A stretch of DNA of 64,000 nucleotides from Geosiphon pyriformis (lineage: Eukaryota; Glomeromycota; Glomeromycetes; Archaeosporales; Geosiphonaceae): NCBI GenBank assembly GCA_016748015.1, contig JAAOMT010000571.1:561095-625094 (forward strand), given 5' to 3'. Positions 1 to 33,969 of this stretch are shown here, piece by piece (position 1 is the stretch's first letter; each line of letters starts with the position of its first letter). Position numbers and translations under genes: made by a program. The notes under the pieces are model-generated. The model searched no databases. It was not told where the DNA came from and saw nothing but the letters and a program-made list of their open reading frames with translations.

Positions 1-909
1 TTGTTGTGTAGTGGTGGGTTTTGAGCAAGTGTAAATTTCGTGATGTTTTCCAAAAGGTGAAATGGTAATTGGCTGAGGAAGTTGAAAAATCTGGTGGGAT
101 TCATTTTGTGTATTAAGAACTATGTTTACTGGAACTGTAAATCGTCCAGTTGAACCAAAACCTTGAGTTCCTCTTTCACTTTTTCCCAATTGTTCTCTGT
201 TGTTTACTGATTGTAAACCCGAAATGTTGATTAAAGGTAAGTAAATTGCTTGAGCAATTTTTTCAGCATGTTCAATTTTGAATGGTTTGTCTGTCTCATT
301 CTGTAACATGATGGTAATGTCTCCAGTGTATCCTGCATCTATAACTCCTCCTCTAATATTGATTCTTTTGCTTGCCAATAATAATCTGGAGGCAATTTGA
401 ACCATTGCTCCTGGTGGAATTTCAAGAGCAATTTTTATATTGATTTTTGTTAAAGACTTTGGTTGGAGAATCAAAGTATCTTTTCCTGGGTATCTCAAGT
501 CATATCCAGCATCAATTTCATGTGCTTTTTCTGGTCTGATTCCTTGGCCATGGTTGTCAAAATATTTAAATTGTAAAGGTGGTTGCTTTTCAAGAAGATA
601 GATAGGAGTGGTTGGTAGTTCTTCTACTTGTTCAGATACTCCAAATTCGATTTCATTTTCATCATTCTCATCTGGCAGAGGAATGCTAAGAGCATAACAT
701 TCTAAACCCCATTGGTCATTACAAGGCATAACACATTCTTTACACAATTGAATGTTCATTTGTTCTAATTGTTGAATTTGAGCTTTTTTGGTCAGATATG
801 TGTGGCTTGCAATTTGGTAGTAGGTTTCTACTTCATCTTCATAATCAAATCCAGCTAATTCTATGATATACTCAATATATTCAGCTTCTTTCATTTGGTG
901 GACATCTTC
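1..909 (-). CDS. dUTPase domain of family A pol (partial at window edge)
   Basis: This open frame continues from the protease frame after one TAA (910-912) and runs off the window. It carries the five motifs of trimeric dUTPases (dUTP to dUMP plus pyrophosphate) in order: AHEIDAGYDLRYPGKD near 485-530, PPGAMVQIASR, GGVIDAGYTGD with the catalytic Asp and Tyr near 318-353, AEKIAQAIYLPL, and the Gly-rich GTQGFGSTGR near 148-173. All look intact, unlike the versions in families B and C. About 110 residues of linker precede the domain. A retroelement dUTPase would be expected to limit uracil in new cDNA; that role is inferred from lentiviral precedent. Whether it is still expressed cannot be told from sequence. 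Confidence 0.85.
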
Positions 910-2184
910 TTAAGTGGCTCTATTGATTAATGCCATTGCTAAGTCAAAAATCATTTTAGCATTATGAGAATAGTGGTAAAGTTTATTGAGAGCACTGTTG
1001 TATGCTGCATTAAATGGTGTCCCTTTTCTGACTTTTTCCGAAATTGATAGAGCATATTGACAGGTTTGATCACATACTCCTCCTCTCATTGCTACATCAA
1101 TCCAATTGTATTCTTCTGGTAGTATTTCTCCACATGTAAGGCAAGGTGTGTTGTCCCATTTTCCACTTCTTTTTGGAGATCCAAATCGTTTTCTATGGCA
1201 TGTTTTGCAAAAGTAACAGGTACAAGTTTCATATTCCTCTTCTGGAAAAATACATGCTCTCATTAATGAAAGTTTTTTGTTGCAATCTTTACATTTGAGT
1301 GGAATATAGGGTGGTTGTTTCCATGGTTCTGGTGTAGAATATCTAACTTTTTTCCATCCCCTTAATTCTTCAAAAATTTCTTGTTCTGTTTCTTCAGCCC
1401 AATTAGATGTTGATCCAAGAGCCATGTAGGTTTCAGTAAGTGGCATTTCTTTTTCCTCTTCAAATTCAAATACTGGAGCTTTTTCTGATCGTTTGTTAAA
1501 GGTACTACAGGTTGCAGGTACTATGGTATATTGTCCTTGGTATGAGATTTTAAGTTCTTGAGTTTCCCAGTTCAGGTTTGCATTGGCCTTGAGAAGCCAA
1601 TCATTTCCGACTAGAGCTTGGTATTGGGGTGCATCCATAACAAGAACTTTAACTGGAATGGTGATTCCATCAATTGAAAAAAAGAAATTATTAATTTCTC
1701 CTACTGAAGTCTTTTTCATATCATTAGCTGTGACAATAACTGTTTGAGCTGGTCTGTTTACGTTTCGTTTGAGTTGTTGTATCAGCTGGTAAGTGATGAT
1801 ACTTTCAGCCAATCCACTATCTAAGATTAAGTGAATGGGTTTTTTTTCCACTGTAGCTTCTGTGTACATAGCAGTAATTGCTTTTTGTTCATTAACTGCT
1901 GCATTACTAAGCAGAAATGGTGATTCATTTGCTTCACATTCAAATAGAAATATATCTGACAGGTTAGCATTTTGGGCAATTTGAGCTGGTGGAATGGTGT
2001 GGTTGAAAAGATTTGATTTTAGCACTGCAACTTCATCTTCAGAAAGTGTAGTTTGTTGAAAATCCGATTCCTCTGATATTGTAAGATAATTGGGTTGAGT
2101 GTGATAGTGATTGGGTCTTTGCTGACCTGAATTTCGAGGAACCAACTGGTTATTTGGATTGATTCTATTGTGGTTATTCTGCAA
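910..2184 (-). pseudogene. Aspartic protease plus Cys-rich module, family A pol
   Basis: The frame has no initiator: it starts directly after a TAA that sits where a Gln codon is likely, and ends at TAA 910-912 with the same frame continuing into dUTPase. The retropepsin active site reads LILDSG about 120 residues in, followed by the usual hydrophobic flap region and a GNDWL motif. A Cys-rich stretch follows (about 1300-1050): CKDC, then CTCYFCKTC, CLTCG, and a final CDQTCQY. This spacing suggests zinc binding and recurs in families B and C. Protease role (polyprotein maturation) is family knowledge; the Cys-rich module has no function I recognise. Confidence 0.8.
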
Positions 2185-2189
2185 TTAAT

Positions 2190-3920
2190 TTTGGGGTGTG
2201 AATTGGTTATGTTGAACCAATCTTCTTGCTGGTGCTTGATATTGTTGAGTGGGTGGTATCTGATATGGCTGAATTGGTAAAGGTTGCTGATATTGTTGCT
2301 GCATTGATTGTGGAGCTGGTGGGTAGTAGTTTTGATTTTGTGGTCTTAGTGAATAATAGGTTGGTGGTGGAGATTGGTAATAGGATTGTTGTGGTGAAAA
2401 GTAATGTTAATTACTCCTGTTTTGTTGGTCTCTTTGTAATTTCCTACAATCTCATTTCCAGTGTCCTGGAATTCCACAATAATGACAATTTTGAGATTGG
2501 TTGTTGGATGGTAATCCAAAATTGTTTTGGTTGCATCATTGTGGTGGTTGATATCTTTGTGGTTGTTGCTGCTGTTGTTGTTGGTTTGTAAAATAGCTTT
2601 CAACTTTCTTTGTGAGTTGGTCTATCTTTTCTTCAGCTGCTGAGCTGGTTTCTCCAATTGCAAGGTTTACAAGCTTGGTGTGATTTGCTTCTTCCATTGC
2701 CATTTCATAGCTCTTTGCATGTCTAATAGCAGTTGCTAAGTCTGCTGGAGCATGTGGACAGACTTTCTTAATCAGTTTGTCTTTTAACTCTGCTATAAAC
2801 TGATCCAGAATTTGAACATCAGAATAGTAGTCATTGGTTTCCAATTGTCAGATTCGTCTGAGAAGTTTGTTAAATCTTCCAAGATAGGTCATAACAGATT
2901 CAGATGTTTCTTGTTTGATATTGTGAAAGCAGTTTTTGAGAGTAATAGAGGTATTGTTGTCGGTGAATTGTTGTAAAAAAGCATTTTTGAATGCTTGCCA
3001 GTTTTCAAATGGTTCTTCTAAATTTTCAAACCATTTTTCTGCTGTTCCTTGGAGAAAGTAGGAAATTGTTTTAAGCATTTTTGCTGCAATCCAACCATTT
3101 GCATCTCCTGCTTTTTGAATCTTGTCAAGCCATTCTTGAGAACTGGTGTTATTGTTTTCACCAGTGAATTCTGGGATTTTTGCAATGTAAGCAGTTGCCA
3201 TTTCTTCTTCATTTTCGGTAATTTTTTCTGGTTCTGATTTAGTTTCTTCACTTTTCAAGCTTTCTGAATAATTACTTTTGTTTTCCTGTAAGTAATCAAT
3301 GATATTGGCACTTGTTGATATTGGTTCTTGCTGTTGAGTAAAGTTTCTAGCTGACTGAAAATCTTCTGGTCTGGAGAAGTGGTTGAGTGATGAATTTGGT
3401 GTTTGTGGCTGAACAAGTGAAATTAGAAATTTGGTGTAATAGAAAGTGGTAATTGGACACTGGTTTTTTGTTCAGGTGTTTGCAAGTGTTTGGCAGTTGT
3501 CTTTTGTAGTGTTGGAGTGTTTGGAGTGGTTTTTGAGTATTGCTTCAATCTTTGTTTGCCTTTGTTGCTTGTTTCTGTCTCTGATTCAAAGTCAAATGAG
3601 TATTTAGACTGTACTGGGTATTTTTCTTTACAATACTCAATAATGTTAAAATTAAGTTCTTGAAAGTAGGTAGCAAGTGTTTCACTATTCAGGTCTTCTG
3701 TTTCTAATTGTGAATAATGCACTAAATTATTGTAGAGATTGCTTCTAACTTCTGAAATGTTGTAGTTTGCAAAAAGATAATTGTTGATGCAGTTTTTAAT
3801 GTATTGGTATACTGATTTCTTGACAACTTCAATTCCGTCTGAAATGTTGAATCTTTGCTTGCAGTGGGTGTAAATTGACTGGTAATACTTTAGAGTTGCT
3901 GTGTCTGGTGTGGTCGCCAC
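2190..3920 (-). pseudogene. Gag-like region, family A copy 1
   Basis: An N-terminal gag segment (3920-3423) opens at GTG rather than ATG and contains no Met. A capsid-like segment (3258-2848) contains the Trp/Leu-rich retrotransposon gag core (for example AEKWFENL). A downstream segment (2844-2536) ends in a Gln run. A CX2CX4HX4C zinc knuckle, CHYCGIPGHWK then stop then DC, lies at about 2445-2485. Breaks are mostly single stops at codons where related copies have Trp, Arg or Gln. Gag would form the particle and package RNA. The segment order and the knuckle make the call firm; the exact protein boundaries are not recoverable. Confidence 0.75.
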
Positions 3921-3965
3921 TTTGAATTTGTTGTTGCTGTGTTATTTTCGTAAGAGAGCACCAAA

Positions 3966-4936
3966 TGTTACTGGAGGTTTTTGGTCTCTTTTCTTAAATG
4001 TTGTTGATGCCTGTTTGTTGTGAATTCACGTTTTCTGGATGTGGTTGAACCTCCAATAACTGAATTTATCTTCAAATTATCTCCTATAATTTGAACTGTT
4101 GGGCTTATAAGTGAAATGACCAATTCCCTGCCAGTTACTTTATGTAATTACATTGTAGTAAATGTCAACTCTTTCCCAGGAATTGCTTGTCTGGAAGCTC
4201 ACTGAAAATGTGTAGTTACTTTGCTGTAAAAGTCAACTCTTCTACAGGAATCTTGTCTGTAGGCTACCCTAATAATTGTAATAAGAAAAAAAAATAAAAA
4301 TAAAAGAAATGTAAAAGAAATAGAATTTTGTTAAGGGAAACGTTTTCTATCCAGGCCTGGAGTCACTAACAGTTTACTGAAATTGGTAGCTAATCAATTT
4401 CAAAACGTTAGTTGGGTTTTGAGAATTTTCCAAGTGTAATAATTAAAGAATTTGGTTTTTCGAATTATTTGATATTTATTTCTTTTTGTGTGTGTAGGAA
4501 TGGTTCTAAGTGATAAATCTAAAGTAAGATACATTTTCCAGAAGAGAAAAGCTCTTCTTTTATACAACTTGTTGTAGTATTAGTCTATGAACTTGCATTT
4601 TTTCTCTTTGCTCAAATTTTGGCGAACTAAAGATACGTTTTGATGAACTACAAGTTATTTCACTAAACTATTGATTAATTTGGGTGAACTATTCATAATT
4701 TCGGCAAATTTCTGTAAATTTCGGCGAATTTTTGAATGTTACAAAGTTCAGAGTATTGTGTAATTTGATCATCCTACTTTCTGTTATACTAATTAGATTA
4801 TTTTAATTGAATTGTAATATGTGATAATTGATTAAATAATAAATGATAATTTGAAATGATATTAATATACTAATAAATTATAAGAATTATAAGGGTAATT
4901 TCATGCTAATTAATAGCTAAAATTCTACTGGTAACA
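3966..4936 (-). repeat. LTR of family A copy 1 (971 bp)
   Basis: The repeat has TGTTAC...GTAACA ends. On the minus strand its 3' end is followed by two bases and a TGGTGCTCTC primer-binding site. It is clearly homologous in inverted orientation to 7679-8645, and to the decayed relics at 50.4-50.75 kb and 57.66-58.46 kb. The outer end abuts a gag remnant, placing the insertion inside another retroelement. Confidence 0.85.
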
Positions 4937-7647: not shown

Positions 7648-7678
7648 TGGAATTATCAAATGAAATTAGAGATATTGT

Positions 7679-8645
7679 TTAGCATGAAATTACCCTTATA
7701 AATCTTATCATTAATTAGCATATATTATTGTTTTAAATTATCACTTATTACATTAGCAGAATATCCGAAATTATTATTTAATTAATAACCCAATTTGTAC
7801 ATAACACAAATGTAATCTAATTGTAATGATCAATTATGCAATACACCAAACTATGTAATATTCAAAAAGTTCACCAAAATTTGTAAGAAATTTGCCAAAA
7901 TAATTGATAGTTTGCCGAAATATCTAATAGTTTGCAGAAATAACTTGTAGTTTGCTGAAATGTATCTTTAGTTTAGCAAAATTATAGAAAATAGCAAAGT
8001 TCAAGTTCATAGAATAGTGTTATAACAAGTTGTATAAAAAAAGAGCTTCTCTCTTCGAGAAAATGTATCATACTTCAGATTTAATAATTAGAATTATCCT
8101 TTATATACAAAAACAAAATAAATATCAAATAATTTGAAAAACCAAATTCTTTAATTATTTGCACTTGGAAAATCCCCAAGAACCCAACTAACATTTTGAA
8201 ATTGATTAGCTATCAATTTCAGTAAACTGTTAGTGACTCCAGGCCTGGATAGAAAACGTTTTCCTTGACAGAATTCTATTTCTTTTACATTTTTTTTTAT
8301 TTTTCTTTTCTTTTCTTTTCTTTTATTAGTATAGTCATTAGAGTAGCCTATAGACGAGAATTCCTGTAGAAGAGTTGACTTTCACAGCAAAGTAACTACA
8401 CATTTTTAGTGAGCTTCCAAATGAGCAATTCCTGAGAAAGAGTGACATTTACTACAACGTAACTACATAGAAGTAACTGGCAAGAAATTGGCCATTCCAC
8501 TTATAAGCCCAGCAGTTCAAATTATAGGAGATAATTTGAAGATAAATTCAGTTACTGGAGGTTCAACCACATCCAGAAAACGTAAATTCACAGCAAACAG
8601 GCATCAACAACATTGAAGAAAAAAGACCAAAAACCTCTGGTAACA
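7679..8645 (+). repeat. LTR of family A copy 2 (5' end slightly truncated)
   Basis: Plus-oriented and homologous to the reverse complement of 3966-4936. It ends in GGTAACA at 8645, directly before a TTTGGTGCTCTC primer-binding site. The first roughly 27 bp present in copy 1, including the TGTTACC terminus, are missing or altered. Confidence 0.85.
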
Positions 8646-8647
8646 TT

Positions 8648-8660
8648 TGGTGCTCTCCCA
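8648..8660 (+). promoter_or_regulatory. Primer-binding site, family A copy 2
   Basis: TGGTGCTCTCCC begins two bases after the LTR end, the normal place for pairing with a tRNA 3' CCA end. Copy 1 has the same TGGTGCTCTC on the minus strand and family C has TGGTGCTTCC. The tRNA species was not identified. Confidence 0.65.
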
Positions 8661-8690
8661 CAGAAATAACACAGTAACAACAAATTCAAA

Positions 8691-9098
8691 GTGGCGACCA
8701 CATCAGACACAACAACTCTAGAATATTACCAGTCAATTTACACCCACTACAAGCAAAGATTCAACATTCCAGACGGAATTGAAGTTGTCAAGAAATCAGT
8801 ATACCAATACATTGAAAACTGCATCAACAATTATCTTTTTGGAAATTACAATATCTCAGAAGTTAGAAGCAATCTTTACAATAATTTAGCACACTCTTCA
8901 CAGTTGGGAACTGAAGACCTTAACAGTGAAACACTTGCCACTTACTTTCAAGAACTTAATTTTAACATTATCAAGTACTGTGAAGAAACATACCCAGTGC
9001 AGTCTCAATACTCCATTGATTTTGAATCAGAGACAGAAACAAGCAACAAAGGCAAACACAAATTGAAGCAATACTCAAAAACTATTGTTACAAGTTAA
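8691..9098 (+). pseudogene. Gag N-terminal fragment, family A copy 2
   Basis: The 135-codon frame opens at GTG (AAAGTGGCGACC context) with an in-frame TAA nine codons upstream and no Met anywhere. It matches the copy 1 gag N terminus almost residue for residue through ESETETSNKGK, then loses homology near 9090, so the element is 3'-truncated here. The predicted segment is helical and acidic to polar, with no motif of known function beyond gag kinship. Confidence 0.75.
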
Positions 9099-11396: not shown

Positions 11397-13232
11397 TTTA
11401 GTATGAAAGATAGCCACATGTAATGTTAGGAGAATGAACAATTTAGCCAAGCAAGAGGACATTATATATTGGCACAGAGATATGAACAATTTGGTTTCAA
11501 TTGTTACTGAGACGAAGTTAAAAGATAAGGTTTGGCCTTGGATTGCTAATAAATTCGATGGTGTTCAGGTCTTCGTTTCTGGTTTGGATTCTGGTTACCT
11601 TGGTTCTGGTGTAGTGATCATTATGAACAACGCTCTGGCAAAACATGTATGTAAAGTTTTTGAGGTTCCTGGTTGTCTTTTGTCTGTCAAGCTGCTTTTC
11701 AAAAATAAGCTGTCAGTGTTGATTCTGGATTTGTATACTGATGCTTCAGTATCTGTGTGCTTTTCACAAGTAGACGAGATAAATTTCTTAATTGCTAAAG
11801 CTGTTAATGAGTCTTCTTTCATGATATTGGGTGGCAATTTCAATGAAGATGGCTCTCACAGATGTGCTAGTTTCAGGAAATGTTTTGATTTGGGTTTGGT
11901 TAATGCCTTGGGAGGGAGTCTGTTTGGGAAGAATGCGACTTGGACCAATTCTCGAGGGGTGACCAAGACTATTGATTATGTGTTTGTGTCATCAAGCTTG
12001 GTCAACGCAATCTTAAATCATAGTGTAACCAGAGTTGATGAATATTTTGATACTGATCATAGGGCTGTTACTGTTTCTGTGGACCTGGGTGGTCTTTTGG
12101 ATGTTAATTTAATGTCTTTTCACAAACAGACGAATAAAAATCGTTGGAAGTTCAATTTTAAGGATACTACAGCTGCCAAATGGGCTGCATTCAAGGAATC
12201 TTCTACTGCCACCATGGCAATGTTTAAGTGTGAGTTTGATGCTGCTCTATTGTTTCTGGATCTGAATACTATGTGAGACATCGTCTGCAAAATTGTGTAC
12301 TTATCAGCAAATGATGTTTTCAAAAAGAAATGGTTAAAGAGTTATGATAATGTGTTTACTAAGGAATCTTCTAAGTTTCACAAGTTAGAACTTTTGGTGT
12401 CTAAACTAGTTAAAGCATCACATTTGATTTCCTCTGAGGAATTTGTTGCATTATTGGGTATGTGGAACTCATTAGATACTACAAATGCTTCTGTAGTGGA
12501 GTCTTTTTTTCTTTCAGGGTCGCATTTTGAGGTCATAAGATCTGTCTTGTTCAGAGTCAAGAAGTTGTATCGTTCCTCTAAATTGTCCGAGTCGAAGTGT
12601 GCTAAAGAATTTCGTATTAGATCAGTGGTTAGTAGGAGAATAAAAAGTTTTGAGGTAAATAAGGGTCATACTATTAGAAGTGTGCTAGAGCACCTCTTTC
12701 ACAAGATGGTATTGGATCACTTGGTTGTTGATGATAAACTGGTTTTGGATTCTAGTTTAGTTAAATCTAAGGTGGATATTATCATGGAAGACTGGACTAG
12801 AAAATGCGAGTTGGTCACTGATATCTCTGCTGATTGGTGTCACCAGTACCAACTCTTGATGTACGTATTTGATGATGTATTTTTAAGAATAATGGACCCT
12901 ATTAGTTCTGTTGAGTTGTTTGGTATTGTTTCGGACTTGCCTAATGATAAGGCTGCTGGTTTGTCTAGTATTTCGAACGAGCTTTAGAAGCATTGTGACA
13001 AATCGGTTTTGAATATGTTGTTGGTGCTCTTGAACTTTTGTTTGCTCTGTGAGTCAGTTCCTGGTCTTTGGAAGGAAGCCTGAGTGTTTATGATCCCCAA
13101 GTCTTATGAATAGGAAGGAGTTCTTACGAACACCTGACTCATTGCTTTGATTGAAACCACTCATAAGATCCTTTCAAAGATCCTATTGAACAGGATTTCT
13201 TTAGCATGCAGTACTCACAACATTCTCCATGG
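11397..13232 (+). pseudogene. LINE1 ORF2, 5' part: APE endonuclease and start of reverse transcriptase
   Basis: The endonuclease begins ATCNVRR at about 11,410 and shows TETKL, GGNFNEDGS (the catalytic GDFN Asp is Asn here), TIDYVFVSS and TDHRAV, the usual order of APE-type nucleases that nick the target. Stops at 12,274 and 12,985 break the frame. RT follows (DLPNDKAAGLSSISNEL and onward) until 13,232, where family C interrupts the coding sequence. The RT frame resumes at 23,435. Confidence 0.85.
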
Positions 13233-14135
13233 TGTTACAGGTGATTATTTTTGCTGTTGAATTAAATAACAAACCTGTAATTTGGTGCTCAAAAGCTACT
13301 TCCATTGAGACTGTTCTGCAGGTGCTGTATCTGAAGGTTTTGATGTATCTGAAGGTTTTGGTTAATCTGAAGGTTTTGGTTGAGTCTTTTGTATAATGAA
13401 CAGAGATTCAATAGTGTCGATAGTAGAAATATTTTCCAAGAGTTTTCCCAATTTCTTTCTCAGTGTGGTGGCCAGATTTAGTCTGGCAGTTGTGCCCTTC
13501 TAGTAAGCTATCCGATAATATATAAAAATCCTACCTGTATTTCTGGGTCTTTTACCAGGCTATTCTTGATGTCAATAACTCAGCACTTAATTGTTTATCA
13601 ATTAGTATATAACCACAAATCAAAATAAAATAAAGAAAAAGAAATAAAAGAAAATAAAGAAAACAAAAAAATAAGCCAAGGCGATTTGCAGATTAATATC
13701 CTGTCAATAGTCATGATCAAGAGCTATTGTTCCAGTATGGTCAAGTATCAATTACTATCAACATGAAGGGTTAATAGTGGGGAAGTGGATAAAGATATAA
13801 AATAATTATTTATTTAATGATTGCGTTTTTAGGCTAAGGATTCTGTGGTATCAATTCTGTCTTTTCTGTTTCTAACACTATTGCTATATATACATAATTG
13901 AGATTCTTCAATTCCTCGATTTTTTGCAACAAGAATCCTGGAATTTCTGGAATCCTGCGATTCCTTTGAGAGGAATCCTGGAATTCTGGAATCCTGCAAT
14001 TTCTTGTTGGGAATCCTGAAATTCCTGGAATCCTGCAATTCCTGAGAGGAATTCTGGAATTCCACATTTTACTATGCTTACTTCTGATTGGCTAATAATT
14101 ATGCTAATATATTTCTTATATTTCTATGAGTAACA
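13233..14135 (-). repeat. Family C 3' LTR (903 bp)
   Basis: It begins TGTTACAGG and ends GAGTAACA on the plus strand, matching 22,532-23,434 in length and throughout. It contains a roughly 18-bp tandem motif (ATCTGAAGGTTTTGGTT type, 13,326-13,381) and a degenerate minisatellite built on GGAATCCTGGAATTC (13,905-14,062). ORFs over the minisatellite are not genes. Confidence 0.9.
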
Positions 14136-14150
14136 TTATTTCCTCCTTTT
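14136..14150 (-). promoter_or_regulatory. Polypurine tract of family C
   Basis: On the minus strand AAAAGGAGGAAATAA lies directly against the 3' LTR, the expected primer site for plus-strand DNA synthesis. Family B has GAAAGGAGAGGATAA at the same place. Confidence 0.75.
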
Positions 14151-15231
14151 AATATTGAGCTCTGTCAAAATCTAACTCATGTAATTCCTCCTCTTGAAGT
14201 ATTTCCTGGATTTTGTTTTCTAGAATTACTTGTGTTATTTGGGTCTGTAATTTTTCAAATTGAGCATTGGTGATTTTTCCCAATTGATTACTGGTAACCA
14301 GATCCATTGCTCTGTTGAGCAATATTTTTGGTTTATCTTAAAATGCTGTGTGTATTCAGTATATTGCTTGGACTTGTGTAGATAAGTTCTTCTTTTCCAC
14401 AAAATGTTCTAATTGTTGTAGTATTCTTTTGTCGAATAATCGCTTTGTTTTATCCGTATATAGATTCTGAATATTTATGTGTTGTCCCAAGTAAAAATAA
14501 CAATAGTTTCATGGAAATTGTTGTATCCACCAATTCTAAGTTTCTTTAGTCAACTCTTGATATAGTGACTCTTTTGTCAATTTTTTTATTGCTAATTTTA
14601 CTTTTGCCATAATTTTGTCCACAGTATTTTCAGTTTTCTTCTGTGTTCTGAGTTGAAATGTCTTTCTAGTATTTTGATATCAAATGGTTTGTTGATTGAT
14701 TGTAATCTCCATTTCTTGGTGTTGGATTAATTGAAAGAGTTGTTGTGCTAGTAAGTGAATGTTGTCTGTAATTTTCATTTTTCTGATATTTCCTGTCATG
14801 TCTACCATGTCTTTATATATTCTTTTGATGGATCAATTTAACGTGTTGTTGTCAATAATAATAATTGGTTCCAGATCTCGTGGAATCTTATCTGGTTGGA
14901 CTAATATTCTCTGTACTCCTAATTGTGGAATATTATTGGTAGATGGTAGTGTAATGTTGTGATATGGTTTCAGTCCATCTCCATGTGCTGCTTTGGTTAA
15001 AATTTTGTTATTCAATCTTAATTTGTAAGCTCCATTTCCTAGAATTTCTTCTATGTGAAATGGTCTGTCCTATTTGGGGTTAAATTTTCCACTCCATTGT
15101 TTTTCCGCTTTGGTACGATGTAGTAATACTTTGTCTCCGATCTTGAATTCAACTGGTTTGTCTGGTAGTTGACTATCATGTCTTTCTTTCTGTGTTTCTT
15201 GTGATTTTTGAATATTATCAGCTGCTCTTCT
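14151..15231 (-). pseudogene. Integrase C-terminal tail and post-integrase ORF, family C
   Basis: Reading minus from 15,231, a segment with FKIGDKVLLH and SGKF resembles the usual integrase C-terminal beta-barrel. From about 15,000 on, a Lys/Gln/Ile-rich helical region continues to HELDFDRAQY-stop immediately before the polypurine tract. Family B has a matching ORF at 35,435-36,106 ending NFDFDGAQF-stop. Several stops break this copy. No known domain was recognised; it may be an accessory ORF or a long pol extension. Confidence 0.6.
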
Positions 15232-16200
15232 TCATTTGTTTTCCAATGTTTCTATTAAGTCATATGTTTTTTTCAGCAATGTTTCTTGAAAATTTTCAGC
15301 TGGATATGTATTAATTTCTCTCTCTACTGGTAACATTGCTATTTTCCCATATACTAATTCAAATGGTGTTGCTTGTGTAGTATCCTGTTTCGTTGTCCAA
15401 TAAGCAAATAGTACTGATAGTATGAACAAATCCCAATTGTTCTGGTTTTCTTGACTGAGCTTGGCTATTGCTTTACACAATGTTCTGTTGAATCTTTCTA
15501 CTAATCCGTTGGTTTGTGGATGGTATGGTAATGATAATAGTCTCTTAATTCCGAATCTTTGGCTTAATTCTGTTAATGTTCTGTTCACAAAATGAGTTCC
15601 TTGGTCTGATAATAATTCTTTTGGACATCCATGTTGACAAATCAAATCCTGATGAACGAATTTGGCAACGGATTCTGCATTCGCTCTTTGAATTGCTTTT
15701 ACCTCTGGCCATTTAGTAAGATAGTTCATAGTTACTGCTATGTATTTGTTTTCTCTGCTGGTGATTGTTAATGGTCCGACTAAATCAATTCCCATATGGT
15801 CAAATAGTTGTCCCACTTTGATTGGTCTTAATGGTTTACTGGGTTTTGTTCCTCCTCTTTGCTGACAAGCATCACAATTTTGCACATATTAAATGATGTC
15901 TGGATATATTGATGGCCAATAGTATTTTTTTCTAGTTCTTTCTATGGTTGCTTCTTTGTGAAAATATCCTGCTGTTGGATTTGAATGCATGTTGAATAAT
16001 ATTGTCTCTTTTTCTGGCTCCATAATTACTCTGGTTGGTTGATCTGGATCCCTTCTATTTTTCCAATAAAGTATATTTTGGTGAGTAATGAAATATTTTG
16101 ATTGGTGTTTAATACTCCTTTGTTCCGTATGTGATAAATTTTTTTTGAACTGTTGAGTGTTTAGATAATGTTGCAATTGTTGATATTTTTGTATGTTCAT
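15232..16200 (-). pseudogene. Integrase, family C
   Basis: An N-terminal HHCC zinc module is present (MHSNPTAGYFHKEATI, then CDACQQ), split by a stop near 15,889. The catalytic core has all three acidic residues in context: GIDLVGPLT, LLSDQGTHFVN and TNGLVERFN. This is the DDE integrase that inserts element cDNA. The frame is otherwise open across the core. Confidence 0.85.
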
Positions 16201-16229
16201 CTTTTTGTTGTATTTTTCGTTGGTATTAT

Positions 16230-17525
16230 TCTGGTTTTATTATATTTTTGGGTTGAAATGTTCTTAGATTTGTTTTATTTGCAATAAACCATCAGCATTT
16301 CCATTGTCTTTTCTCTTTTTGTAATGTATAGTATAATTGTATAGTGTGAGTGCCATTTTCCATCTTGACTGTCTTCCATTTCCAAATTCTTGTTTTTGGA
16401 GTGATGTTTATCCCTTGTGATCTGTATATACTTTAAACTTCTGGCTCAAGTATTCTTTTCATTTTATGACAGCCCAATATATTGCTAAGTGTTCTTGTTC
16501 TGGTGTTCTATAGTTCTTTTTGGCTGGTGTTAAATCTCTGCTGGCATATGCTACTGAATGTTTTCTGCCATCTGGTCCTCTCTAAGATAATACTGCTCTC
16601 AATGCTTGGCCAGATGCATCGGTGGTGATAATAAATGGTTTGCTGTAATCTGGATAGATCAGTACTGGAGTTTGGATAAGCTTTTTCCTCAGAATACCAA
16701 AAGCTTCTTGTTGACTTTCTGTCTATTTATATTTTGCATTTTTGTTTTGTAGTTGATTGAGTGACTGTGCTATCTTGGAAAAGTTCTTGATAAAATAACA
16801 ATAGTAGCTGGCAAATCCCAAGAATGATTTCAGTTCTGTTATATTGGTCAGCACTGGAAAGTTCTTTACTATCTCTATTTTCTCTGGATCCGTTTTGATG
16901 CCATCTTTGCTAACTATGTGTCCCAAGAATTTGAGTTCTGTTTTGCCAAAGAAGCATTTTGTCGCATTCAACTTCAGTCCTGCCCTTCTCAGTCTTTCGA
17001 ACACTTATTGAAGATGATGAAGATGATCATCAAACATCTTTGAAAATACATTGGTGTCGTCCAAGTATACAGCTACTGATTTCCACAATAAGCCAGTATA
17101 AACAATTTTCATTAGCCATTGGAATGTTGCTGGGGCATTGGTTAAGCCGAATGGCATCACTTCAAATTCGAAATTCCCTTCTCTAGTAGTAAATGCCATT
17201 TTCTCTTTGTTAGCTGAATTCATGGCTACTTACCAGTAACCACTGTCCAAATTTAATGTAGAAAACCATTTGTTCCCACTGAAAGCATCGAATAATTCCT
17301 GTATTCATGGAGTTGGATAACTGTTTTCACAAGTTACACCATTGAGTTCCTGTAGTCTACACAAAACCAGATTTTTCTATTTTTCTTATGAATGAGTACC
17401 ACTGGTGATGACCATGGACTTATTGATGGTTGAATTAGCCCATTGTCAAGCATTCTGTTTATCTCTTGACGAATAATCTTGTGGCTGGCTGGCAACACTC
17501 TGTATGCTCTTTGTTTGATTGGCAT
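16230..17525 (-). pseudogene. Reverse transcriptase and RNase H, family C
   Basis: RT motifs appear in order on the minus strand: SPWSSPVVLIHKK, FCVDYRN, FEVMPFGLTNAPATFQ and the active site VYLDDTNVFS (about 17,060). The thumb and RNase H regions follow (LGHIVSKDGIK, then PFIITTDASGQALRAVLS). Stops near 17,330, 17,004, 16,722 and 16,590 interrupt, typically where a Trp or Gln is expected. It copies element RNA into DNA; this copy is dead. Confidence 0.85.
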
Positions 17526-17702
17526 TGCATCTCCAGTCTTGATCTGATGCTAAATAATATTAGTTCGGCCAAACTCATTTTCGCTGGCAAAGATGTCATT
17601 GAAATTGTTGAGTAACATCTTGAGCTGCATACATTGGAGTGGATCTAAGTTTCTCATGTTCACTTGTTCTAATTGTTCTGGTTGGAGCAAATAACATTCG
17701 TC

Positions 17703-18488
17703 TCATCCATAGATTGTCTGTGATGTGATGTCAACATATCCACAAAGTTGTGGAAAGTCTGGAATGGAGTTGGGTGGTTGGTTTTCTATTTCTGTGGTTA
17801 AATATCTGATGGTAATTCCTTCTGGTATGTTGATGACATTGCCAGTGTTGTTGTAGATGAGAATTTTTATGCTGCTATAGCTTTTGGCTGGTATGTAGAG
17901 ATTGATCAACCCAATCTCTCCTGATTCACAAAGGGTTGCTTTCGCTTCAAAAATCTGTTCTTGCTCCTTTTCCTTCCTTTCTATTGCTAACATATACTGG
18001 CTATATAATGGGATAGAGATAGCTTGACCAGTTGAGATAATTTCTCCTTGGCCAACAGTTTTTTCCTCTGCCATGTTAACTGGTATATTTATTCTATCTG
18101 TGGATCCAAATCCCTGTATTCCTCTTGCCGTTATTCCTAATTCCTCCCTCTTTCCCACTGATACTAACTGAGCTATTCTAACCAGAGGCAGAAATATTGT
18201 CTGTGCTATCTTTTCATTGGGCTCTATTACATAGGCTTTTTCTGAGTTATTTTGTAACATAGCGATGATATTTTCTACATATTCCGCATCAATTATTTCT
18301 TCTCTTATATTGATCCCTCTTTTTACTAAGCTACTCCTAGATGCTAATTGAACCATTGTTGTTGCCAGAATTTCTAGTGCTATTTTCAGATCAATGCAGG
18401 TACATGAATGCAGTTCTAATTTGATGGCATCTTTTCCTGGATATCTCAGATCAAACTCTGCATCCATATTATGCACATGTTCTGGCAT
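17703..18488 (-). pseudogene. dUTPase domain, family C
   Basis: The five-motif layout is retained: AEFDLRYPGKD, MVQLASRSS, REEIIDAEYVEN, NEKIAQTIFLPL and RGIQGFGSTDR. In motif 3 the Gly residues seen in family A (RGGVIDAGYTGD) are Glu here, each explained by GGA-to-GAA. The catalytic Asp and Tyr remain. The domain sits between the Cys-rich module and RT, as in families A and B. The Gly losses at the active site probably abolish activity. Confidence 0.8.
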
Positions 18489-19799
18489 AATACCTTCCCT
18501 ATTGTCACTATACTATTTCAACTCTTGTTTCTTGGAGAGATCTGGTAGTGCAATGTATTGTTCATAGTTTACATTGGGTTTTGAATCTGAGTCTGAATCG
18601 TTTTCATCATTATTGTCAATTTGAACGGAGCTTGAACCATTGTTATTGTCATCATTGTTGGAGTTTGAATCGCGATTGATCAGCGATTCTGATTCTGATG
18701 TGCAGCTGCTGATTGGTTCTTCTTCTTCAGGGATTGAGTAGATTATGCGTGGTGGTGGATTGTAAATAAGGTCATACTCATCACAATACTGGAAGTCATA
18801 GGGAATTAGGCAGTGTTGATATAGTCAAGCATTCAACTGCTCTAATTGTTGTTCTTGTTCTTCTCTTGTGGGTGCTAATTCTTGGTAGTGTTCATGGAAT
18901 TGTTCCAGATTCAGGAGGTTTATGATGGGTTCTGCATCTCAGTCAAGCTCTAAAGGTTCTGGAGGATTGTCTTTGATTGTTTTTATTTTTTCTGGCGTCG
19001 CCTCTTCAATTTTTGCAAGTGTCATTCACCAAATTTTGTTGTCATCATGTGAACAACTGTCCAGTCACTGCACAGCTTTTCTCCAGGCTGCTTCTATTGA
19101 GGTTCCTTTTCTTATCCAGTCACTTATTAGAATTGTGTATTGACATGACACGTCACATGTTCCTCCCCATCCTGGGATGTCGTTCCATATCTCTTCATCT
19201 AGCAAGGTCTTCTCACAAGCAAGACAAGATTGGTTATCCCATTTTTCTTGTCTCTTTGGTCATCCGAAGTGTTCGAGTAAGCATGGACAACAGTAAAATT
19301 TTGTTGTGGTATGGTATTCCTCATTGTTACTACAGCATACACCCATTGATGACAATTTCTTGCCACAATCAACACATATAAGCTTAAGTCAATGATAGGT
19401 AGATTGTTGTGGAATAGTGTAGGTGTTATAAGTGGTGGTGGTTTGGGTGGTCTCTTTTTCTTTTCCTTTCCCTTTATTTTCTTTGTCTTCTTCCCATTCC
19501 CAGCTTGATGTCAGTTCGCTCTCATCATTGTCAGTTCATGTCAAGTTATCGGTTTTCCAGGTAAGTTCTTCTTTTTGTTTCCCTTTTTTCTTGTTGTTGT
19601 TGTCCCAGGAGAATATTGGCGGCAGTTTGTTGTGCTCTTTGTCAGCCCACAATACTTGGTAGGCTTCCCAGGTTGGCTTTTCTTTCTCCTCCTCCAGTTT
19701 GATCAATAGTTTCTCTCTTGAAGGAGTTTTGAAGTGGCCAAACATGGCCGGAACATGTATATGTTGGTCCTGATATATTAGCTGGAGTTTTTGGGTGTT
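18489..19799 (-). pseudogene. Cys-rich module and acidic linker between protease and dUTPase, family C
   Basis: Minus-strand frames from about 19,400 to 19,150 show CGKKLSSMGVCC, FYCCPC, SCLACEKTL and CDVSCQYTILISDW, the same cysteine ladder as in families A and B. It is followed by a helical region and a low-complexity acidic Ser/Asn/Asp stretch near 18,560-18,740. Multiple stops break it. Apparent plus-strand ORFs here are shadows. Confidence 0.65.
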
Positions 19800-20411
19800 T
19801 CAGTCTAACATTGCATTGACTTTGGATAACCAGTCATTACCAATGAGAGCTTGGTATTGAGTGGTTTCTATTACTAGAACTTTGATGAGAGTCATGATGC
19901 CATTGACTTCAAAAGGAAAGTCGTCAATTTTGCCAATTGGAGTTTTGGTTGCTCCATCAGCTGTGATGATTCTGGCGCTGGCAGCTCGATCAACTCGGTG
20001 ACCTAATTGATCCATGAGTTGTCTTGTGATTATGCTGCCTGCAGAACCACTGTCCAGGATCAATTTGATGGATTGTCCTTTGACTTTGGCATCAGTGTAC
20101 ATCGCGGTGATTGGTTTGGCTTCAAGAGTGGCTTCACTAAACAATGGTGTTGCAGCTGTTTCTTTGAATTCGAATGGGAAGATAGTGGCCAATGACTTGT
20201 CTTCGATGATGGTAGTAAGTGGGATATTACTGGTGAGTAATTGTTTTGGGGTAAATGCTGGGTTATTGGTTGAAGCGTCTTCTGAGGTGACCAGAAGACT
20301 TAAATAGTCCTGGGAATTTGGGTTTTGGACACGACTAGTATTCAAATTCTGGGTGCATGATCTTGATGGTGGGTCTAGCAAACGGGGAATCAGTTGGTGA
20401 ACAACCATCAC
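19800..20411 (-). pseudogene. Aspartic protease, family C
   Basis: Retropepsin-like frame with the active site LILDSGSAGSIITRQL and a later ALIGNDWLSKVNA motif that recurs in families A and B. The DSG triad is intact. No genuine start is present because it is part of a gag-pol frame. Confidence 0.8.
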
Positions 20412-20439
20412 TGATCTCCAGTTTTAAGTGACTCTGGAT

Positions 20440-22490
20440 CGAGGGTTGCCTGATGTCATTTGAGTTGGGTTCTGGGGCGGTGTTTGAATTGGTTGGAGTT
20501 GATAGATGATTTGTGACTGTGGTTAATATATTACTTGTGGCTGCGGCTGATAAATCGGAGGTTAATATACTGGCAGTTAATAGATTGGTTGCTGCATCAT
20601 TGGCAGGTAATTATTCCGATATTGGTCTTGACTTTGATTTGGATAATGATTCGGAGTTTGGAACTGGTGATCAGGGTTTCGATATTGATTTTCCGATCAT
20701 TGGTTATTTAAACACTGGCAACAGTCAATTTGGATATGTTCTTGGTTACCACAATAATGGCAGATATGCATTTCCTGTTGCCACTGTTGATTGGTTGATG
20801 AAGATGAATGCAGTTGATTTTGGCCACAATTAGGATGTCCTTGATTATTGCATCGTTGTGAAGGCTGATAAATGGCATAATTGTCAGCTAAGTATCCTTC
20901 CAATCTCTTATTAATTAATTCACTGAACTTCTCCAATTTGAAATCCAATTCAGATGATCCGTTCATTACTAGATTAACGGCTTGGGTATGGTTAGCCTCT
21001 GACTCAGTGGATTCAAAATCTTTGGTGTGTGTGACTGTGTTTTGAAGTGTGCCAGAATGCAACGGACATACATGTTGCAAGATGCTGCTGTGTAGGCCAC
21101 AGATAAACTGGTTGAGTATCTGTGGTGCTGTGAAATAGTCATTATCAATTGCTTAAATTTGGTGCAAGTTTCGATGAAAGCGTCCCAAGTAAGTGGTGAC
21201 TGCTTTAGTTTCTTCTTGTTTTATGGTGGTGAATGTATTGACTAGGCAATTGATGCTATTGTTGTTGCTGAAGTATCTTAGGAATTTTACTTTGAAGACA
21301 TTGAAATCTTGTGGTTTATTAACCAAGCTCTGATACTATGAATTGGCAGTATCCTTGAAAAAGTAGGGAATGGCTTGCATTACTCGAGTGTCATTCCATC
21401 CATTGGCTGCAATGGCCTTTTTTACATTATTCAGTCATATTTGAGCGTCATCTTCTTTGCCAGTAAAGTTGTCAAGTTTTGCGATGGGTGCATAGGCCAT
21501 TGGGTCTAAGTTAGGTGGTTGTGGTGGCTGTTGAAGTAGTTGTTGGGGTGGTAGTTGAAGTGGCTGCTGTATGGGTTCGGCTATGGGATTAATTAGTGGT
21601 TGATTGATGATAATTACTGGAGGTAAGTTTTGCTGATTAATTAATTCGGAGTTTTGATTTCTTGGATTTGGCGGCGTTTGAATATTTGGAGTTTTAATTT
21701 CCGGATTTTCTAACTGTTGCTGAGTTTGAATGTTCGGGGTTTCAACTTCCGGGTTTTCAAGTATCAGGTGTAAGTAAGTGAATTCTTAATCCTCTGATTC
21801 TTCTTCCTTTTTTTCTGATTCTGCTGCTTTCCATGGATCAAAGATTCCGAAATCTGGTGGAGGCGGTGGTGATCAAAGTCCTAATGGGGTTGATGATCGC
21901 AAATTAAATCCCTTAAAGTATTTGCCATATAGTCCTAACAATTCTGTTTTCCTTTGTCTACTTTGGAATAGGAATCATCCAAATGCTGATGTTACAGTTG
22001 ATGGAAACGCGTTGGTTGATGATATGTTGATGGCATTTCCAGGTGTATAGTGGTAGGATGGATTGCTTGGGGATTCAACTCTGTTTTTCTTCCAAGCAGG
22101 TGGCTGTAATTTTCTGGGTGTTACTGCTGATGTTTGTAATTTTCCCTTGCCTTTACTAGCGTATGTAATTGGATATCTTTGTTGAGTGTGGTGTTCAATT
22201 TCTTTGTTGATCTCAGTGATGATGGATGCAAAATTATGATTTATTGGTAGGTTGGTGTTTTGAATTAATTCTTTATAGAAAGTTTCTCTTGCTGATTCAG
22301 TATTCACTAGTGTTCCTAATAAAAAAGAAATCTTTTTGTTGACGTAGAAATTGAAGGCTGATTCGGCGGATATATGATTGTGGTTTAATCCCAAGTATTA
22401 ACAATAGTGTTGAAATAAGGATTTTGCGAATCCTAAATGGTTTGCTCCTAAAATTTCTGATTCTGCCACTTTTGGTTTGGTGTTGTCGGT
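20440..22490 (-). pseudogene. Gag, family C
   Basis: The frame opens near 22,469 at GTG in the context AAAAGTGGCAGAA; an upstream in-frame TGA and no ATG precede it. It proceeds through an N-terminal helical segment, Pro/Gln-rich linkers (about 21,510-21,740), a capsid-like core (GWNDTRVMQAIPYFFKDTA), NHTQAVNLVMN and a CX2CX4HX4C knuckle CHYCGNQEHIQIDC near 20,720. Stops interrupt it at several likely Trp and Gln positions. Confidence 0.7.
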
Positions 22491-22517
22491 GCTGGTTCTC
22501 TGTAGGATTATATCTCA

Positions 22518-22529
22518 CAGGAAGCACCA
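22518..22529 (-). promoter_or_regulatory. Primer-binding site, family C
   Basis: On the minus strand TGGTGCTTCCTG starts two bases inside the LTR terminus TGTAACA, as in family A. Confidence 0.65.
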
Positions 22530-22531
22530 AA

Positions 22532-23434
22532 TGTTACAGGTGATTATTTTTGCTGTTGAATTAAATAACAAACTCGTAACTTGGTGTTCAAAAGCTATTT
22601 CCGTTGAGGCTGTTCTGCAGGTGCTGTATCTGAAGGTTTTGATATATCTAAAGGTTTTGGTTGATCTGAAGATTTTGGTTGAGTCTTTTGTATAATAGAC
22701 AGAGATTCAATAGTGTCAATAGTAGAGATATTTTCCAAGAGTTTTCCCAATTTTTTTCTCAGCGTGGTGGCCAGATTTAGTCTGGCAGTCGTGCCCTTTT
22801 AGTAAGCTATCCGATAATATATAAAAATCCTACTCATATTTCTGGGTCTTTTACCAGGCTATCCTTGACATCAATAACTCAGCGCTTAATTGTTTATCAA
22901 TTAGTATATAACCACAAATCAAAATAAAATAAAGAAAAAAAAATAAAAGAAAATAAAGAAAGCAAAGAAATAAGCCAAGGTGATTTGCAGATTAGTATCC
23001 CATCAATAGCCGTGATCAAGAGTTATTGTTCTAGCGTGGTCAAGTATCAATTACTATCAACATAAAGGGTTGATAGTGAGAAAGTAGATGGAGATATAAA
23101 ATAATTATTTATTTGATGATTGCATTTTTAGGCTAAGGATTCTGTGGTATCGATTCTGTCTTTTCTGTTTCTAACACTACTGCTATATATACATAATTGA
23201 AATTCCTCAATTCCTCGATTCTTCATGACAGGAATCTTGGAATTTCTGGAATCCTGTGATTTCTTTGAGAGGAATTCTGGAATTCTGGAATTCTGCAATT
23301 TCTCGTTGGGAATCCTAAAATTCCTGGAATCCTGCAATTCCTGAAAGGAATCCTGGAATTCCACATTTTACTACGCTTACTTCTGATTGGCTAATAATTA
23401 TGCTAATATATTTCTTATATTTCTATGAATAACA
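22532..23434 (-). repeat. Family C 5' LTR (903 bp)
   Basis: Same length as the 3' LTR, with TGTTACAGG...GAATAACA ends. Differences from the 3' LTR are scattered and mostly transitions. It carries the same tandem motifs (22,626-22,680; 23,194-23,361). It ends exactly where LINE1 RT sequence resumes (GACAATTTTTTGG). Confidence 0.9.
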
Positions 23435-26286
23435 GCAGAGACAATTTTTTGGTTTTGAAGGGTACAATGACACAGTTTCTTATCTTTGCTGTCAACTCTG
23501 TAGTTGAAGATACTCTGGAGAAGAACTACGAGCTTTGGCTGGTGTTGCAAGACATGAAAAAGACCTATGATTCTGTCAGCTGGGAGCATTTAAAAAAGAG
23601 TCTGATTAGAATTAAAATGTGTGGCAGGTTCATTCGATTTTTTGGTAACATTCACAATAACCGAGTCAACAGAATAATGACTCTCTTTGGCCTAACTGAT
23701 GATTATCAAGTCCATGATGGTCTGGATCAAAGGAAAGTGTTCTCACCTCTTTTCTGGCATATATTTTATGATTCTCTTTTGTGTGAAGTCAAGAGGCAAA
23801 AAAAATTTTGTGGATATAGGTTGAATTCTCATTTTGTTGCTAGGACTGGCCGTGTTAAACCTCGGGCTGGTTTTTCTTTTTTTTTTGCTGCTGGTGCTTT
23901 TGTGGATGATACAATTTGGGTCAGCAGCAGTTAGACTGCAACACAACACATTCTCAATGTTGCTAGTGAATTTTTTAGAATTAATGATATTTCAATAAAC
24001 AATGATAAAATAGTGGCAATTCCTATTAACTGTAGAATTGTGAACCCCTTTCTGACAATTAGTGGTGCACCTATTTCTATTGCTAAGAAAAGGAAATCTC
24101 ACTGGTATTTGGGCATCTTTCTGTTTACAGATGGTTTGTTGAAGCCCAGTTTGGCCAAGGCACATTCAGATGTCTGGTTTTTTACCAATCTCATCCTGAA
24201 GAAGGCCATCTTTGATAAGCAATTCTTTTATTTGGTTTCAGCAGTTTTTCATCCCATTGTCAGTTATAGAATGCAGTTTAGTTTTGTTCCACTTAGTGTT
24301 TGCTGTAAATGAGATGCTTTGATTCATAAAGGCTTCAAATCCAAAGTGGGTCTTCCTTCGGACTTCTCCAATAATGCTCTTCATCACCTCTTCCTTTACG
24401 GCTTAAAAACTTTTGAACAGATTTAGGTCGAGAGTAAATCGGTGTCTGTAGTGTGTTTTGCCAATGCTGTTGGAATTCTGGGTCATTTGTTTCTCCATAG
24501 GTCTCATGACTTACAGACTCTGAGCTGGCATCCTGTGCATTCTTTGGTCTCCTCAGCTCATTTAAAATTGAATTCCTCGAACAATTTTTTGGCAGGTGTG
24601 GTTTGTGTTTTTGCCGATTGCAGTTTATCTTTTAGTAGTCTCAGCCCCAGTGCATTTTGATTCTCTCATGGTACCTCCATGTCTTTGGTTCTTAAAGAGA
24701 TGAAATTTTCTAAGTGTTTCTCCTCACTTCAGTGGTATGGAATTGCCTTTGTGGAACAATTGTGTCATTACAATAGTGGTGCTTTTGATTGGAAGACTTT
24801 CAAGTATTGGAAAAGGCTGGACCCGCGTGGCTCTATTCCTGATTGGTTTAGTGTTTCTATTGATCATCTTGGTAGTGCAGAGTTATCTTTTTCTGTTTGT
24901 GACTGTTCGGTGGGTGTTTCTTTTGCTCCTAATGTCTTGGAATCCACTGATTTTGATTTGGTTCGTAATTGTTTGTTGGGATTGGGTGCTGATAGCCTTT
25001 CGGTTTATACTGATGGATCCTTGGCTGGTTTGGGTACTCTCAGTGTTAAATCGGGTGTGGTGGTTTTCTTTGATAATATTAATATGGGTTTGGGTGTTAA
25101 GGTTTTGGGTTTGTTGTCATCTACTTTGGTGGAATTGCAAGCTATTGCACTTGCTCTCAAGTGTGTTTCTGCAATTAGCAAAGTTTGCTTATTTTCAGAT
25201 AGTCAGGCTGCATTGAATGCTTGCAGGTTAGAATTGGATTTGGCACATCTGAATTTTCGGAATAGTTGTTGGGTGGAGTGTCATTATATTGCTAATCTTG
25301 TTCATGCTAAGAGGTTGGATGTCAGCTGGTGTAAGGTTAAAGGACATTTTGGTGTTATGGGTAATGACCGGGCTGATGAACAGGCTGGCCGTGTAGCTCT
25401 TTCTGATTTTGTTCTTCCCTTTTGGCTGAATGAGCGGTTTATTCTGGCTGGTGGTGGTCCTGTTTTGGGTAATTTTAGGCATTTTGTGTGTGACATTTAT
25501 CAGTCCATTTACCATTCGCGTTGGAGTTTCAGTTCGGGTACTAGGGTTGTTGCTGGCAAATTGCTCTCTAATATCGATTGGTGCAGGTCTTTTTCTGTTT
25601 GGCATCCTGATTCACACATGGCTGCTGGCTTCACCAGTATATGGACTGCTGGTTTGTACATGTATTTTATAAAAGCTCTGCATTACAGACTGCCTGTGGC
25701 CATTTGCAAATGCCTTTATAATAGGAGTTACTTTAGTGTGGTTTGCTTGTATTGTAAATGTGTAGAGATTTCAGACCATGTCTTTTCCTGTGATTCTGAC
25801 TTTGCTAATCATGATCGGCTGCTTGGTGATTTTGCGGTTAAATGAGAAGGTATTTCTGGCCCTCACTGCCCTTCTTCTCACGTGCTGCGAACTTTTTCTT
25901 CTTGTATTTTTGACATCTCAGTCCGTGTTGCTCTATGCAAAGACTTTGTTTTTAATAATTGGTTTTCTGAAATGGTTTCTGTTTTTGATGATCTGAAGCT
26001 TGCTGGTGCGAAAATTGTGGACTTTATCCATGATTTTTGCCTAGCTTTTAGAGATGAGGTTTGGTTGGTTCATGTCAAACATTGTGCATTTATGGAGAAA
26101 CATGGGTTAATTCCTCGAAACAGTTCTATGCCAGTTATTATTTCTGGTCTGTCTTCCCTGTATTCGGCTGGGATTGTCAGGTTGTTGGGTATTAACAATG
26201 CATTGGGTATTAGGTTTGGTTTGTGTAAATTTAATTTGTTCATTTCAGGTGCTTTAAATGCGGTTTCCATTCATATAGGTGCATAG
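23435..26286 (+). pseudogene. LINE1 ORF2, 3' part: reverse transcriptase, RNase H, C-terminal domain
   Basis: RT continues with DMKKTYDSVSWEHL and the active-site box AFVDDTIW (about 23,900), then a long thumb/connection region with several stops. RNase H (24,679-25,845) shows YTDGSLAG, a Glu in LVELQAIALAL, FSDSQAAL and NDRADEQA, so the catalytic acids are present. A TGA at 25,843-25,845 separates RNase H from a C-terminal segment with AFRDEVWLVHVKH and SVHIGA-stop. LINE2 and LINE3 carry the same TGA. Confidence 0.85.
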
Positions 26287-28129: not shown

Positions 28130-28131
28130 TT

Positions 28132-28143
28132 TAGTGAACCCTA
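28132..28143 (+). promoter_or_regulatory. Candidate primer-binding site, family B
   Basis: TAGTGAACCCTA follows the LTR after two bases and matches the TGGTG start of the other families with one G-to-A change. Confidence 0.45.
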
Positions 28144-28211
28144 CAAAGAAAGAAAATCAAAAAGAAAATAATAATTAGCAATAATTCATTGCTAAAAAGG
28201 AAAAAACAAAA

Positions 28212-30821: not shown

Positions 30822-30935
30822 CTCTTGTGGACTGACGACCAAAGAACAGGACTACTGATCGTACCAACTTGGAGGAGCAAAAGAAGATCCAAATAGAACC
30901 AGGTAAGTCCACAAAGAAACTGCCAGCAAGGTAAA

Positions 30936-31500: not shown

Positions 31501-31565
31501 GTCTTATTCCGTGCCAAAATCAATGCTATGAAGAATGTCAAGACAAAAGGAACTTAGAAAGAAAA

Positions 31566-32567: not shown

Positions 32568-32574
32568 TGACAAT

Positions 32575-33940: not shown

Positions 33941-33969
33941 ACCATCAAACAACAACCAATTCATAAACA

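Follow-up and report, generated by a model that had tools for sequence, protein, structure and literature searches.

The three dUTPase-bearing elements A, B and C found in the window (the whole 64,000-nucleotide stretch of Geosiphon pyriformis DNA analysed here) are decayed copies of a large Ty3/gypsy LTR lineage of this fungus. Taken as a whole, our reading, which we hold with good confidence, is of a lineage whose Pol runs protease (PR), a cysteine-rich segment (Cys), dUTPase, a spacer termed POST, reverse transcriptase (RT), RNase H and integrase (IN), and whose dUTPase has been kept by selection to limit dUTP.

Domain order in the window and across the genome

All three open frames match the dUTPase profile PF00692 well above its curated cut-off of 22 bits, with 73.7 bits (E 1.5e-20) for the A ORF at 1-909 (-), 57.0 bits (E 2.3e-15) for the B ORF at 31476-32567 (+) and 56.8 bits (E 2.6e-15) for the C ORF at 17703-18512 (-), in agreement with the sequence-only reading, which had named this search as a check on its dUTPase assignment. 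The best 120 of the 417 database proteins matching the A ORF are all from Geosiphon pyriformis. A protease domain lies 5' of the dUTPase in A, B and C alike, RT-RNase H lies 3' of it in B and C, and an integrase domain is present in these two elements. B spans 27313-36928, with LTRs of about 809 bp that are 93.8% identical to each other, and C spans 13233-23434, with LTRs of 903 bp that are 92.4% identical. The paired LTRs and the PR-to-IN order of B and C bear out the Ty3/gypsy identity that had been proposed for all three elements. The family A element runs off the window edge, with its RT and second LTR beyond the window in a flank that is masked throughout, and one in-frame stop (910-912) lies between its PR-Cys frame and its dUTPase frame. 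The proposed position of the dUTPase between PR and RT is thus seen directly in B and C, while the PR-dUTPase-RT order of A would follow from A-family sister copies in which RT is present. The features, in window coordinates, are as follows.

145-534, minus strand: family A dUTPase domain (PF00692; residues 126-255 of the 1-909 ORF; 1/17 motif residues altered)
694-1302, minus strand: family A Cys-rich domain, between PR and dUTPase, ends approximate and set by eye (207/211 codons aligned; holds the stop at 910-912)
1597-1860, minus strand: family A aspartic protease (Asp_protease_2, 5.8e-08, residues 109-196)
2848-3471, minus strand: family A gag (capsid) piece (Retrotrans_gag, 1.1e-12)
13233-14135, minus strand: family C LTR, 3' in element orientation (92.4% to 22532-23434)
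15232-15888, minus strand: family C integrase core (rve, 6.8e-10)
16273-17412, minus strand: family C RT-RNase H, approximate and interrupted (tblastn, 54% identity; codon map)
18099-18491, minus strand: family C dUTPase domain (3/17 motif residues altered)
19824-20093, minus strand: family C protease (gag-asp_proteas, 1e-10)
22532-23434, minus strand: family C LTR, 5' (pairs with 13233-14135)
27313-28120, plus strand: family B 5' LTR (93.8% to 36120-36928)
30381-30608, plus strand: family B protease (Asp_protease_2, 1.5e-05; RVP_2, 2e-06)
30927-31559, plus strand: family B Cys-rich domain, approximate (211/211 codons aligned; 72% identity to L043; 3 stops)
31710-32102, plus strand: family B dUTPase domain (6/17 motif residues altered)
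32772-33854, plus strand: family B RT-RNase H, approximate and interrupted (tblastn and codon map)
34147-34626, plus strand: family B integrase, H2C2 and core (Integrase_H2C2, 1.5e-18; rve, 3.2e-07)
36120-36928, plus strand: family B 3' LTR (pairs with 27313-28120)

Elsewhere in the window, 7664-9082 is an inverted partial copy of 3529-4924 (the A gag start and beyond), at 85% identity. The ORF at 39416-40330 (+) resembles a Sec61/SecY translocon subunit and is, by eye, presumably a host gene between the elements. An apparent LINE-like (non-LTR) element, also recognised by eye, is present in two copies of opposite orientation (11407-12276 and 54864-55604; 24661-25845 and 51437-52621), which carry endonuclease-like and RNase H-like ORFs.

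We mapped 30 loci on the 1307-residue frame of the reference copy L043, taking 29 of the 30 loci chosen by PF00692 rank (L007 is L043 itself) together with L045, a set that is biased towards well-kept copies. A Cys-rich region (196-211 of 211 codons) precedes the dUTPase (137-139 of 139 codons) in 30/30 loci, and PR, Cys and dUTPase come in the same order throughout, the protease being complete in 29 loci and unreadable in L047, which shows 6/111 codons and has masked sequence. RT follows the dUTPase in 24 of the 30 (in two of these it is partial); among the six loci with no readable RT, L001, L002 and L058 have one deletion in common, and L008, L053 and L063 have long masked stretches. Combining L042, which extends from gag to RNase H, with the integrases of B and C gives the full order gag-PR-Cys-dUTPase-POST-RT-RNase H-IN. 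PF17919 and PF17917 (Ty3-type RNase H) are found in both L042 and L043, and PF17921 (H2C2) in B. No chromodomain follows the integrase in L042:329-1078, the one copy scanned; a 250-residue ORF on the minus strand of this interval, 3' of the integrase, has no Pfam match. As for abundance, there are at least 150 A-type POST copies, the matches listed all having at least 82% identity, and about 140 B-type copies (141 matches at 69% identity or more, some of them partial, the last nine listed being at or below 44%). For PF00692, the best 150 of 3181 first-look candidates were scored, and 150/150 lie above the cut-off.

The same genome also holds a Ty3 lineage that appears to lack dUTPase. Among 30 loci taken by RT_RNaseH_2 rank (best of 150 scored matches), 28 are readable before RT, L035 being truncated where its contig stops and L036 masked. 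The end of a dUTPase is present in 6/28, a proportion that is no census because this ranking favours the dUTPase-less lineage, and the other 22 show none within 1,500 bases upstream of RNase H. In 20 of these 22, all but L010 and L025, we found lineage-typical protease tail or linker sequence, so that a dUTPase could not fit between PR and RT. Such a lineage would mean that the enzyme is not required by every element in this host. Its members (within L009-L038) carry a protease tail, then an acidic linker and a small Cys-rich stretch ahead of RT. The many A-type and B-type copies, beside an apparently dUTPase-less Ty3 lineage in the same nuclei, thus offer a within-genome comparison for the old question of why some retroelements carry a dUTPase.

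Role and ancestry of the dUTPase domain

Each dUTPase was scored at 17 residues, which we take to represent the five motifs of the enzyme. None of the three window copies is intact (0/3), with one residue altered in A (in motif II), three in C and six in B, and the earlier statement that family A retains all motifs has therefore to be corrected. All 17 residues are kept in 8/30 dUTPase-ranked loci, drawn from the A and B families, and seven of these eight have no stop in the domain, whereas L062 does. The scarcity of dUTPase stops in these loci was dropped as evidence of selection, as the loci were ranked by the same domain; likewise, A, B and C were found via open frames and are a biased sample for stop counts. 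We also took eight A copies (L069-L076) anchored on POST, independently of the dUTPase, at spaced ranks among 150 listed matches. One of these eight, L071, keeps all 17 residues and has a stop in the domain, and stops across the set amount to 3 in 1112 codons of dUTPase, 11 in 1624 of POST and 17 in 1404 of RT. The predicted dUTPase core aligns to the poxvirus trimeric dUTPase 2okb at 2.2 Å over 109 columns, while higher-ranked, longer alignments of the model to solved structures have an rmsd of 10-13 Å; the model, of 606 residues, is of low quality as a whole (mean pLDDT 59.8) and better in the dUTPase core.

Pairwise dN/dS values (Nei-Gojobori, own script, from pairs that are not independent) are below 1 in every group, and in every pair with a computable dS. 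Pooled over the eight POST-anchored A copies, dN/dS is 0.44 for dUTPase, 0.29 for POST and 0.22 for RT, and in the dUTPase-ranked sets the dUTPase and RT values are 0.19 vs 0.17 for A and 0.43 vs 0.37 for B. The dUTPase has thus been under selection, if somewhat less strongly than RT. Most of the differences that separate the eight A copies are transitions, and they are commonest at CpG, with C/T and G/A differences at 0.50-0.72 of CpG sites vs 0.09-0.26 in other contexts; RIP-like decay at CpA is unsupported in these copies, CpG being the commonest context. Mean synonymous divergence in the same copies is 0.17 for dUTPase, 0.24 for POST and 0.49 for RT, and this unevenness suggests either that copies have recombined or converted one another, or that the choice of POST as anchor has introduced a bias.

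The likeliest role of the dUTPase is to limit dUTP during reverse transcription. The element protease would cut the dUTPase out of Gag-Pol, and the freed dUTPase would assemble as the usual trimer and hydrolyse dUTP inside the virus-like particle or close to it, such that little uracil would then enter the cDNA. The benefit would fall in nuclei with low host dUTPase, that is, in non-dividing hyphae or spores, and passages of PMC4531489 provide a retroviral precedent for a dUTPase need in non-dividing cells. Four observations count against this role: selection is weaker on dUTPase than on RT (0.44 vs 0.22), no window copy is motif-complete and the sole complete POST-anchored copy (L071) has a stop, a Ty3 lineage of the same genome appears to do without the enzyme, and the host possesses its own dUTPase gene. 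The latter, at L046 (G000:C262:401600-404000), is intron-split with all five motif regions readable, and we therefore reject the idea that the element enzyme replaces an absent host dUTPase. A full-length yeast Dut1 query gave nothing above 36-37% identity among the 150 matches listed, and a shorter conserved dUTPase segment found the host exon at 52% identity over 42 residues; the host gene is invisible among the elements to a full-length six-frame query.

There is some chance, which we consider small, that the domain was instead kept for something other than catalysis (for example trimerisation, assembly of the particle or binding of proteins), with hydrolysis secondary or lost. The departure of the window copies from the catalytic motifs would be consistent with such a job, as would the dUTPase-related protein of a bovine lentivirus, which an excerpt of PMC4261571 describes as critical though inactive. 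However, motif-complete domains in eight of the 30 dUTPase-ranked loci, seven of them stop-free and from both the A and B families, argue for a working enzyme, albeit from a biased set, and the CpG-rich transitions among the eight A copies are what would be expected of post-insertion decay. Limitation of dUTP remains the role that we prefer.

In a tree of 33 rows, the dUTPases of A, B and C form one clade (100/100) with P0129, P0171, P0173 and the Racocetra fulgida protein P0289, apart from the Geosiphon host dUTPase, from yeast, and from the copia-type and other Ty3 dUTPases; the dUTPases of P0177, P0179 and P0191 fall outside this clade. The RT tree of 36 rows, which holds 12/22 dUTPase-less loci and some of the others, resolves three single groups, namely A (100/99), B (100/99) and the dUTPase-less lineage (100/100), and joins A, B, C, P0129 and P0173 with moderate support (84/81), the grouping of A, B and C alone being weak (84/49). 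The RTs of P0177, P0179 and P0191, which are dUTPase-bearing elements from outside, lie beyond both Geosiphon lineages in this tree; both trees are rooted by midpoint only, with the outside rows on long branches. The label of L028 as family C is not borne out by the RT tree. Between families, dUTPase dN is 0.36-0.46 at a dS of 1.29 to saturation, and dN is 0.23-0.42 for PR, 0.23-0.28 for RT, 0.46-0.64 for Cys and 0.56-0.71 for POST. Near-saturated synonymous sites together with moderate amino-acid change point to one acquisition, long ago, of a domain that purifying selection then maintained, and the simplest reading of the sequences would be a single acquisition before the A/B/C split followed by vertical retention. 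As Racocetra and Geosiphon are both Glomeromycotina, the Racocetra fragment in the clade suggests that this acquisition reaches another order of the group. The sequence-only reading had distinguished three families, had proposed vertical retention with selection before decay, and had called for a phylogeny against the host dUTPase; both points are supported by the groupings in the dUTPase and RT trees and by the dN and dS values.

Repeated or recent capture of a dUTPase by each family, for example from the host gene, is disfavoured and in our view highly improbable: other fungal elements apparently acquired theirs independently (statements in PMC2864245), and the copia-type and other Ty3 dUTPases are placed elsewhere in our tree, but A, B and C sit in one clade with their Racocetra and metagenome relatives (100/100), off the host gene, and have the flanking Cys domain in common. 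Least credible is a neutral passenger whose integrity in the window is due to chance, which is refuted for the time before insertion as, although the copies in the window are interrupted and far from recent (LTR identity 92-94%), dN/dS is below 1 in every group and every pair with a computable dS, and synonymous change between families is close to saturated.

The Cys-rich domain and an RT-less derivative

The interval between PR and dUTPase in L043 holds 20 Cys and five CxxC pairs in 336 residues, and the rest of the frame has 0.9 Cys per 100 residues. The Cys-rich domain is also present in P0129 (five CxxC pairs) and P0171 (six), whereas P0179 and P0191, other PR-dUTPase-RT elements, have one CxxC pair each. 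It has no Pfam match above the cut-off (best E 0.1), including for window:910-1335 (-), a PDB sequence search returned nothing below E 0.4, and fold searches with its predicted model against PDB and viral models gave no match at E ≤ 0.001. This model, built from 25 sequences, has a mean pLDDT of 70.5 with a moderately confident core. The segment appears to be a domain not described before and characteristic of this element lineage, its Cys pattern indicates that it probably binds zinc, and, more speculatively, it may hold the dUTPase in the nucleoprotein particle. A domain of this kind between PR and dUTPase is apparently new, and provides a new handle on how the dUTPase is used in the particle.

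Three loci of the B family on three contigs (L001, L002 and L058, on G000 C401, C301 and C262, respectively) have an identical junction, at which POST is joined to a point about 100 bases before the 3' LTR, and RT, RNase H and integrase are gone. PR, Cys and dUTPase are retained in all three, in sequence read from just 5' of PR. L001 and L002 rank first and second by PF00692 score in the genome list and have one stop each in the Cys region, and the dUTPase of L058 is interrupted by a stop. The three copies are most simply read as one deletion that was then copied, with segmental duplication as the alternative source. The derivative copies are pairwise 94.5-96.4% identical vs 92.9-95.4% for ordinary B copies, and are in this sense no more alike than the latter, such that these values do not demonstrate recent spread. 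An RT-less derivative that keeps PR-Cys-dUTPase is apparently new. Only tentatively do we put forward a joint reading of these observations, in which Cys would be an undescribed zinc-binding domain that coevolved with the dUTPase as a PR-Cys-dUTPase module common to distant Glomeromycotina, and the RT-less derivative would have spread as a non-autonomous element that may still make particle proteins and dUTPase of its own but takes RT and integrase from elsewhere.

Relation to known systems

Earlier fungal Ty3/gypsy elements with a dUTPase were reportedly described by Novikova and Blinov in 2008, and Riccioni et al. are said to have found, in the same year, a dUTPase between PR and RT in fungi. 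PosPlaTy3-5 of Postia placenta has its dUTPase between PR and RT according to a section of PMC2864245, which also cites earlier dUTPase elements of Phanerochaete and Tuber, the Tuber element being Tmt1. For elements of rotifers, fungi and planarians, passages of PMC5408684 and PMC6431247 give the dUTPase this same position, the latter citing Riccioni 2008 for the fungal case. The dUTPase and its PR-RT position in fungal Ty3/gypsy elements are thus already known, and the novelty suggested for this order gives way to published elements of Postia and Tuber, and also of bdelloids; the Cys domain is the variant feature. In Glomeromycotina, PF00692 is among the domains of transposon-derived proteins with low-complexity regions (part of PMC11878562), and it is enriched in Entomophthora muscae (part of PMC11105155). 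Among titles and abstract openings, covering few subscription journals, we found no description of the Geosiphon elements or of the Cys domain.

PosPlaTy3-5 resembles the Geosiphon elements in being a fungal Ty3/gypsy element with a dUTPase between PR and RT; the Postia, Phanerochaete and Tuber elements are compared here by description only. The bdelloid elements Juno, Vesta and TelKA likewise have the dUTPase between PR and RT, but differ in their animal host and in that Juno has an extra zinc knuckle after the dUTPase, in contrast to the larger Geosiphon Cys-rich domain before it (sections of PMC5408684). Beyond Ty3/gypsy, P0183, P0185, P0187 and P0190 are copia-type (RVT_2) with a dUTPase that lies before integrase and RT in three of them and after RT in one, and P0184, a plant bacilliform virus polyprotein, has a precomputed PF00692 domain. 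Retroviral dUTPases belong to the same enzyme family and are encoded in or beside pol. Their place differs from that in the Geosiphon elements. In betaretroviruses the dUTPase lies upstream of PR. In non-primate lentiviruses it is found between RT and IN (a passage of PMC4531489), and in HERV-L between pol and the LTR (a passage of PMC1142308). Racocetra fulgida P0289, a 201-residue fragment from a 1,059-base contig, has by eye the apparent end of a Cys domain before its dUTPase, and the metagenome protein P0129, which matches 91% of the segment used as query at 45% identity, has the order PR-Cys-dUTPase-spacer-RT.
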